Below are positions 8,446 to 8,788 of a stretch of 64,000 bases of DNA, in pieces; positions within the stretch are counted from its first letter, which is position 1; every line of letters begins with the position of its first letter. This DNA is from Eubacterium sp. (GTDB lineage: Bacteria > Bacillota > Clostridia > Oscillospirales > Acutalibacteraceae), in assembly GCA_017450645.1 (NCBI GenBank), contig JAFSTE010000018.1, positions 62,001-126,000 on the forward strand, written 5' to 3'. A model generated the notes under the pieces. That model was not told the DNA's origin and did not search any database. It saw only the letters and a program-made list of their open reading frames with translations. The position numbers and the translations under genes were made by a program.

Positions 8446-8533
8446 TAAGTTAATTAACAGAGTGAATTATCGCTCACTGTTTAATATGCACAAAATTAAT
8501 TGTAAATTAATTATTAACAAATTATAAAATCCG
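8446..8533. other. AT-rich intergenic stretch with a weak hairpin
   Basis: A bulged hairpin (8456-8465 / 8474-8481, core AGTGA/TCACT) follows the lipoprotein gene but lacks a convincing T-tract, so it is at best a weak terminator. The rest is low-complexity TTAATTA-type sequence with no ORF. Confidence 0.35.
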
Positions 8534-8561
8534 TTGACTTTTTTAAACGCAGGAATATAAT
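8534..8561 (+). promoter_or_regulatory. Promoter of the small-peptide unit
   Basis: TTGACT (8534-8539), a 16-nt spacer and TATAAT (8556-8561), start expected near 8568. The first transcribed bases can fold into a 7-bp hairpin, AACGAGG (8570-8576) / CCTCGTT (8583-8589), of the kind that protects mRNA 5' ends. Confidence 0.7.
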
Positions 8562-8616
8562 GTGGGTGAAACGAGGGGTTAACCTCGTTATCAAGCTACA
8601 AGGAGGCGGGTTTTAT

Positions 8617-8685
8617 ATGTTCAGATACCTTTTAAAGTGTGCTGAAATCCTTGCCAGTGGTGACAAGGCTTATGCAACAAAATAA
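8617..8685 (+). CDS. Small 22-residue peptide of unknown family
   Basis: A 23-codon ORF beginning MFRYLLKCAEILASG and ending DKAYATK. It is preceded by a perfect AAGGAGG (8600-8606) 10 nt before the ATG, one of the best ribosome binding sites in the window. It lies in its own compact transcription unit: near-consensus promoter, 5' hairpin, ORF, strong terminator, about 180 nt in all. The peptide has a hydrophobic N-terminal half with one cysteine (Cys8) and a charged, polar C-terminal half; it shows no classic signal peptide, double-glycine leader or AgrD pattern. It could be a small regulatory or membrane-associated protein, a type I toxin-like peptide, or a peptide-coding regulatory RNA. 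I recognise no homologue. Confidence 0.6.
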   Translation: MFRYLLKCAEILASGDKAYATK

Positions 8686-8705
8686 ACTTAATACACACAA
8701 CTATT

Positions 8706-8750
8706 AGCACTGTTTTGGTAAGTATAAATCAAAACGGTGCTTTTATTTTA
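8706..8750 (+). terminator. Strong terminator of the small-peptide unit
   Basis: A 12-bp stem (AGCACTGTTTTG / CAAAACGGTGCT, one G-T pair) is followed by a T-rich tail, 20 nt after the small ORF. Confidence 0.85.
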
Positions 8751-8758
8751 ATAAATGC

Positions 8759-8788
8759 TTGAATATGTATAAAGACATATGATATAAT
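8759..8788 (+). promoter_or_regulatory. Promoter of the phosphohexomutase operon with an internal palindrome
   Basis: TTGAAT (8759-8764), an 18-nt spacer and TATAAT (8783-8788). The spacer holds an inverted repeat ATATGT (8763-8768) / ACATAT (8775-8780), placed where a repressor would occlude polymerase. Confidence 0.6.

Follow-up and report, generated by a model that had tools for sequence, protein, structure and literature searches.

The window analysed here, which is the whole stretch of 64,000 nucleotides, carries a compact transcription unit for a 22-residue peptide. Its upstream neighbours are a MIF gene, a SIR2 gene and a gene without a Pfam match which, from a reading of its start, appears to encode a lipoprotein, and 134 bp downstream, on the same strand, lies a phosphoglucomutase/phosphomannomutase (PMM) gene. 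The features of the unit are collected in Table 1.

Table 1. Features of the peptide unit, with positions counted from the first letter of the window
Feature	Position	Strand	Remarks
Upstream end of conserved upstream element, TGCACAAAA	8487..8495	+	recurs in many units at sites A and C
Direct repeat TGTAAA-N5-TATTAA-N5-TATAAA	8501..8528	+	11-bp period, WalR-like; fixed place across units
Sigma-A type promoter TTGACT-N16-TATAAT	8534..8561	+	11 of 12 consensus letters; all 46 scorable units match in a search that fixes the spacer at 16 bp
Predicted transcription start	8568	+	placed by position, 7 nt after the -10 hexamer
5'-terminal stem-loop	8570..8589	+	7-bp AACGAGG/CCTCGTT, 8570-8576 with 8583-8589
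Ribosome binding site AAGGAGG	8600..8606	+	10 nt 5' of the ATG at 8617
22-aa micropeptide ORF, MFRYLLKCAEILASGDKAYATK	8617..8685	+	profile matches in the genus; dN/dS
Intrinsic terminator	8706..8751	+	stem 8706-8741, 14 pairs counting G-U

Signals of the unit in the window

A preliminary description of this DNA had claimed a near-consensus promoter, a 7-bp hairpin at the 5' end, a perfect AAGGAGG 10 nt before an ATG and a 22-residue ORF, all of which are present; its terminator was also correctly located, and the stem length of 12 bp that was given for it has been revised (Table 1). On direct reading of the + strand, the promoter consists of the -35 hexamer TTGACT (8534-8539), a 16-bp spacer and the -10 hexamer TATAAT (8556-8561), and it is the best scoring of 14 promoter-like sites in the 7-11 kb region, for which shuffles of the same stretch yield 6.6. 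Terminator-like sites show no excess in that region (4 found against 4.5 in shuffles), and that of the unit has the longest stem among them. The 184-nt RNA folds with a z-score of -3.1, a value as low being reached by 3 of 200 shuffles.

It had also been argued that such a combination of signals is unlikely for a random short ORF, and the counts bear this out. When every ATG on both strands is considered, the whole window contains 280 ORFs of 15-40 codons, and the peptide ORF alone is preceded by AGGAGG at a distance of 5-13 nt. Moreover, the pattern TTGACW-N16-TATAATG followed by GGAGG within about 77 nt occurs twice in the 2.08-Mb genome, at this unit and at a tRNA-Met gene, and the reversed control pattern does not occur (0 occurrences). 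The strength of these signals suggests that the unit is highly expressed, as had been proposed. An in-frame ATG overlapping the -10 hexamer (TATAATG) gives a longer frame on paper (8560-8619); it precedes the predicted transcription start and is unlikely to serve as a start codon. Between the terminator and the PMM gene there is a second promoter-like site (8759-8788, + strand, 10 of 12 letters, extended -10), and PMM may thus have its own start. The original observation is correct and stronger than was claimed; it can now be added that the unit is conserved, that a repeated element (8501-8528) precedes its promoter and that relatives carry copies of it elsewhere.

Distribution and selection of the peptide

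An initial search by DNA similarity matched 15 of 60 genomes, the source genome included, and a reading of those loci showed that, of the 14 relatives, only 7 encode the peptide; in the remaining 7 the match extends over 19-30 nt and carries none. Peptide profiles derived from these relatives matched 43 of 80 genus genomes (A2, E<=0.01) and 44 of 80 (A3, E<=0.003), again with the source genome included. Profile A3 gave 48 matches in total, 47 of which, in 43 genomes, had E values of 6.2e-8 or better, and the 48th was a diverged copy in genome G078 (E 0.0015). The preliminary description had named a lack of conservation in close relatives as grounds for rejecting its proposal; the ORF is matched in 44 of the 80 genomes, strongly in 43. 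When completeness of 90% or more and contamination of no more than 5% are required, 51 genomes remain, of which 30 carry an A3 match. The 36 of 80 genomes without a match include many that are more than 95% complete and, therefore, the unit is not essential to the genus; absence from a draft genome may sometimes be a gap.

No convincing member was found outside the genus in samples of the order, family and class, which overlap and are thinned and in which divergent relatives could be missed. In the order sample the 3 matching genomes of 394 all lie within the genus. In the family sample 7 of 398 matched, the 4 from outside the genus being weak partial matches (E 0.003-0.008) inside frames of 231-823 aa, and in the class sample the 2 matches among 391 were the source genome and a weak partial match (E 7.5e-4) in a 277-aa frame. 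A search of genome contigs yielded 20 loci from uncultured Oscillospiraceae, Eubacterium-like organisms and Clostridia, several of them from sheep, goat and deer. Phage and plasmid sequences, searched by tblastn with one query each, gave no match, and 3 pattern stretches in viral contigs were not confirmed.

The family has the consensus MxKLLxKCAxILAxxDxAYVxxx and a length of 20-31 residues. In the 44 distinct A3 profile sequences Met1, Cys8 and Ala13 are invariant, and A9, I11, L12, D16, A18 and Y19 are each present in at least 90%. Cys8 occurs in all 47 units and also in the divergent G078 copy (MYKFLVTCVKILVALDREHY, outside A3), which retains Met1, has Val at position 13 and is preceded by a perfect TTGACA-N16-TATAAT and AAGGAGG. 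Two groups of 15 sequences can be distinguished, KCAEILA (22-26 aa) and DPAYV (27-31 aa), and 10 of the 15 members of the latter carry a second Cys at position 22. Four genomes (G006, G035, G065 and G084) hold one copy of each type.

The preliminary description had suggested looking for synonymous-site bias in the ORF. Within the two groups, dN/dS is 0.106 (KCAEILA, n=15) and 0.116 (DPAYV, n=15), the pairs within each group not being independent, and shifted frames of the KCAEILA group give pN/pS values of 1.41 and 1.55. The remaining 16 units are more diverged, with a pN/pS of 0.31 at a pS of 0.76, where synonymous sites are saturated. Judged by these ratios, the frame is under purifying selection at the amino-acid level, and we regard it as almost certain that this is a real peptide gene. 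For five genomes in which PMM could be compared alongside, the change summed over codon positions 1 and 2 is 0.25 for the peptide ORF against 0.17 for the whole of PMM, and the value for the ORF lies within the range of 19-codon PMM windows (median 0.13, 97.5% point 0.51). In the same five genomes the third-position change of 0.34 is at the low edge of the PMM windows (0.32-0.63), and some constraint at the level of RNA or codon use is therefore possible.

If helical, residues 2-14 would be amphipathic, with a mean hydrophobic moment of 0.46 that falls, on average, at the 90th percentile of shuffles (n=46), and the net charge has a median of +2 and a range of 0 to 5 (n=46). Length, charge and amphipathicity would also suit an exported signal or antimicrobial peptide, leaderless and similar to PSMs or pheromones. 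This is an improbable reading, given that no signal peptide is seen by eye, that no exporter or receptor occurs among the 20 neighbour-cluster representatives read or the 9 proteins scanned with Pfam, and that signal and bacteriocin peptides are fast-evolving, unlike the strongly constrained family described here.

The preliminary description had also called the peptide toxin-like and, in the sense of a type I toxin silenced by an antisense RNA, this now appears very unlikely. The small size and hydrophobic residues, the presence of two copies in four genomes and the patchy retention would all be compatible with a toxin, and weak antisense promoter-like sites (9 of 12) do occur in the window. 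However, when a region starting 60 nt ahead of the ATG and ending 160 nt beyond the stop was scanned at a threshold of 10/12, an antisense promoter was present over only 1 of the 47 units and, by eye, the hydrophobic stretch of about 12 residues, with consensus Lys at positions 3 and 7, is short for a membrane span.

The peptide had been said to fit no known family, and we too found no convincing relative in any of six collections. No significant match was obtained in Pfam (28 A2 members, plus 4 and 5 peptides), NCBIfam (4 and 5 peptides), PHROGs (28 A2 members plus 7, best E 0.0053) or PADLOC (44 peptides), profile A2 matched PDB entries only at E>=1.1, and Rfam 15 gave 0 matches at gathering score in the window, the 2 matches far below that score being rejected. 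Also dismissed as chance were Pfam TarS_C2 (2 of 28 members, best E 0.075), phrog_5430 (11 of 28 members, best E 0.0069, where seen over an inner piece of 13 residues of a 52-position profile), phrog_30717 (3 of 28, E 0.0053) and phrog_7448 (2 of 28, E 0.16). A literature search revealed nothing on the peptide family, the only text match to six core motifs in 5.39 million papers being a single, unrelated 'cakila' in one paper on soybean.

Genomic sites, promoters and leaders

The 47 units occupy several genomic sites. Site A (25 units) follows SIR2 and lipoprotein-like genes and precedes PMM or a transporter, the latter assigned by eye; site B (9 units) lies after hisS and aspS, both recognised by eye, and a YfbR-like gene; site C (5 units) is near a C_GCAxxG_C_C gene, with an S1-domain gene following in 3 cases and the contig ending in 2; site D accounts for 2 units, site E, after L21 and L27, for 2, and 4 are located elsewhere. 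All 5 copies at site C (L112, L118, L120, L121 and L125, from 5 genomes) are of the DPAYV type and keep the repeat box and mid-length leader described below, and 4 of these 5 genomes also carry a copy at site A. According to mechanical ORF calls for the 47 units, the next upstream ORF of at least 100 aa is on the same strand in 41, on the opposite strand in 4 and absent in 2, and the corresponding downstream numbers are 31, 10 and 6.

A leader peptide or attenuator acting on the downstream gene would be expected to stay with that gene, and PMM does follow the unit closely on the same strand in the window, as does some ORF in 31 of the 41 units that have one. Nevertheless, the identity of the downstream gene varies from site to site, its orientation is opposite in 10 of the 41, and the second promoter-like site lies ahead of PMM, such that we give this explanation very little credence. 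The occurrence of the unit at several unrelated sites makes action in trans the most likely mode.

A PMM tree of 71 genomes (42 with the unit and 29 without) was used to follow its history. It contains 71 of 72 rows, one of less than 300 aa having been dropped, and 8 of the 80 genomes are not represented by a PMM row. It is rooted at the midpoint only, and the long branches G033 and G073 are of unsure placement. Presence and absence require 13 label changes on this tree (12-14 in bootstraps), 8 of them forced by well-supported branches, against 22.7 for shuffles. Carriers are accordingly spread over the genus, the long-branched group G033/G030/G027 among them, and the unit has repeatedly been lost, gained or moved.

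By eye, no unit was seen at empty sites in 20 A2-negative congeners at least 90% complete, where the reading took in 330 nt after the HD (YfbR-like) gene at 19 loci, two G079 fragments excepted, and 420 nt before PMM at 17 loci, of which L159, cut at the contig end, offered only gene interior; in several of these 20 genomes PMM follows another gene, so that site A itself was not covered. A script run over loci L127-L177 located the divergent G078 unit about 1 kb downstream of that genome's HD gene, and the short frames that it picked up behind 9/12 promoters at L157, L166, L168 and L170 are unrelated to the peptide. In 37 profile-negative or weakly matching genomes, the promoter-plus-GGAGG pattern gave 10 matches, one of which is the G078 unit; the other 9 were rejected, L185 having an unrelated frame of 25 aa behind the pattern and the rest frames of 126-497 aa.

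For promoter, leader and repeat counts, L115 was excluded, as it has no upstream DNA. With the spacer fixed at 16 bp by the search, TTGACN-N16-TAYAMT is present in all 46 scorable units, with TTGAC of the -35 hexamer and the G after the -10 hexamer likewise in 46 of 46; in L102 and L103 a free promoter pick chose other sites, and fixing the spacer recovered the family promoter in both. Upstream, a repeat box was defined as a match to TRTAAAC-N4-TRTAAAC or to TGTWAH-N5-TGTWAH in which no more than one letter deviates. It lies at exactly -33 from the -35 hexamer in every scorable unit of site A (24), site C (5) and site D (2), 31 in all, and in none of the 15 units at other sites. Shuffles gave the first form in 0.08 of 46 and the second in 2.2 of 46; other half-site spacings occur in 0-3 of 46 units, like their shuffles. 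The second form, taken as a set of predicted sites, is exact in 5 of 46 units and has one mismatch in 21, the window's repeat among them, and 24 of these 26 are at -33. A scan of 1.17 Mb of DNA, some of it redundant, for exact TRTAAAC-N4-TRTAAAC boxes gave 21 different contexts. Units account for 20 of these (17 recognised by script and 3 by eye), and the remaining one is on the minus strand of L184 at about 170. Further upstream, at about 47-48 bp before the -35 hexamer, many of the units at sites A and C have a stretch of the TGCACAAAA type.

The leaders, measured from the -10 hexamer to the ATG, fall into three length classes. The commonest is the mid-length class of 51-58 nt (24 leaders, confined to sites A, C and D), followed by a short one of 30-34 nt (13) and a long one of 70-89 nt (9). 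In all 24 mid-length leaders the first 28 nt fold with at least 5 pairs (mean z -3.8), and the stem begins at the predicted +1 in 16 of them. Letters at most stem pair positions vary with pairing kept, in a table that is aligned by 5' position only and scores each leader singly, and so is not a formal covariation test. RNAalifold predicted no pairs on a MAFFT alignment of these 24 leaders, we think because the loops were misaligned. Structure at the 5' end is probably kept, to judge from the individual folds. When leaders were cut differently, 27 of 34 had a z-score below -1, and L088 and L089 had no stable hairpin; L110, at site A, also lacks one, and at sites B, E and elsewhere the leader is too short for a hairpin in 12 of 15 scorable units. 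A script detected terminator-like sites in 39 of 46 units and missed L086, L105, L106, L113 and L114, as well as the contig-cut L112 and L122; by eye, 4 of the first five have a terminator and L106 does not.

Segment identities among 7 close units are 1.00 for the hexamers, 0.88 for the box, 0.84 each for the ribosome site and the ORF and 0.79 from the -10 hexamer to the start, with the rest of the upstream DNA at 0.68-0.71. The promoter spacer, hairpin, hairpin-to-SD segment, 3' spacer, terminator and the 60-110 nt past the stop all fall at 0.57-0.66; the hairpin (0.65), hairpin-to-SD segment (0.59) and 3' spacer (0.61) compare with 0.66 for the DNA past the gene. Besides the ORF, no conserved pairing region was seen in these 7 units, the leader, 3' spacer and terminator lying at 0.59-0.65. 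The peptide and its signals are thus kept, with no sign of a pairing seed and, on this comparison, selection keeps the peptide rather than the letters of the RNA.

These values bear directly on the earlier suggestion of a dual-function RNA or, more generally, of a base-pairing sRNA that acts on target mRNAs, with the ORF secondary or stabilising. The transcript is predicted to be short, strongly promoted, terminated and well folded, and the slightly low third-position change in the ORF would also fit. It remains an unlikely explanation in view of the strong selection at the amino-acid level, of letters in the leader, 3' spacer and terminator that drift about as does the DNA past the gene, with no conserved stretch outside the promoter, ribosome site and codons of the 7 close units, and of the Rfam result for the window.

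Proposed function and comparison with known systems

As read from the sequences, the unit has its own promoter and a strong ribosome site, with a terminator and 5' stem-loop in most copies. Our preferred reading, to which we assign a probability of about 0.6, is that of an autonomous, regulated micropeptide gene, the product of which would form an amphipathic helix that places an invariant Cys on the membrane or on a protein partner. RNA polymerase would start at about 8568, and a candidate OmpR-type regulator bound to the 11-bp-period repeat (about -67 to -50) would help or gate transcription. The 5' stem-loop may slow decay of the short mRNA, from which ribosomes would make a helix of about residues 2-13 followed by a D-x-A-Y tail. 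K3, K7, E10 and S14 would be located on one face of this helix, with mostly hydrophobic residues elsewhere, and it would lie on the membrane or dock on one protein partner, where the never-replaced Cys8 could do chemistry or make a tight contact and thereby tune the partner. Association with the membrane, which the preliminary description had listed among its options, is plausible, and a role at the membrane or on a partner is suggested by the amphipathicity of the helix.

A more extended and more tentative proposal, which we hold to be possible and would not put at even odds, is that of a genus-wide family of Cys-micropeptides with a dedicated OmpR-type box, acting in trans as cell-envelope effectors and expressed from two classes of promoter. 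The first class, at sites A, C and D, would combine the box with a longer leader that usually forms a hairpin; the second, at sites B, E and others, would lack the box and have, for the most part, a minimal leader. If true, the envelope-effector reading would represent a previously unseen class of post-translational regulator and not a copy of a known one.

ORFs so short are often skipped by gene finders, and selection retains this one in roughly half of the gut-genus species that were sampled, together with a conserved promoter core and regulatory element whose spacing is fixed. It illustrates that signals, combined with comparison, can separate a real micropeptide gene from chance ORFs, and it provides a testable case in which natural losses can be compared with a conserved peptide of minimal size that has a single invariant Cys and a candidate regulator box.

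The ORF may already be present, as an unnamed cluster, in the small-protein catalogues GMSC (PMC11364881) and sORFdb (PMC11796252). As regards the upstream repeat, WalR-controlled genes of Firmicutes have the consensus TGTWAH-N5-TGTWAH (PMC9210968). The box of the unit agrees with it in half-sites and in the 5-nt spacing between them, and its distance to the promoter is likewise constant. Unlike the WalR regulon, 15 of 46 units have no box, and the regulator proposed here is a candidate of the OmpR type. Other OmpR-type regulators use similar repeats and, therefore, we do not name the regulator of the unit as WalR; we know of no such peptide among WalR targets.

SR1/SR1P, SgrS/SgrT and RNAIII/delta-haemolysin are dual-function RNAs, short and terminated, with a small ORF. 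The unit resembles them in producing, as predicted, a short terminated RNA with a small ORF, and it differs in having no conserved stretch beyond its signals and codons, with selection falling on the codons. SpoVM of Bacillus is a tiny amphipathic helix at the membrane, and CIII of phage lambda acts on the protease FtsH. Both are small amphipathic proteins like the predicted product of the unit. No sequence relation of the peptide to either was found, and it has no Pfam match in the scanned members except for the weak one to TarS_C2; it differs from them in the vegetative type of its promoter and in its one invariant Cys.
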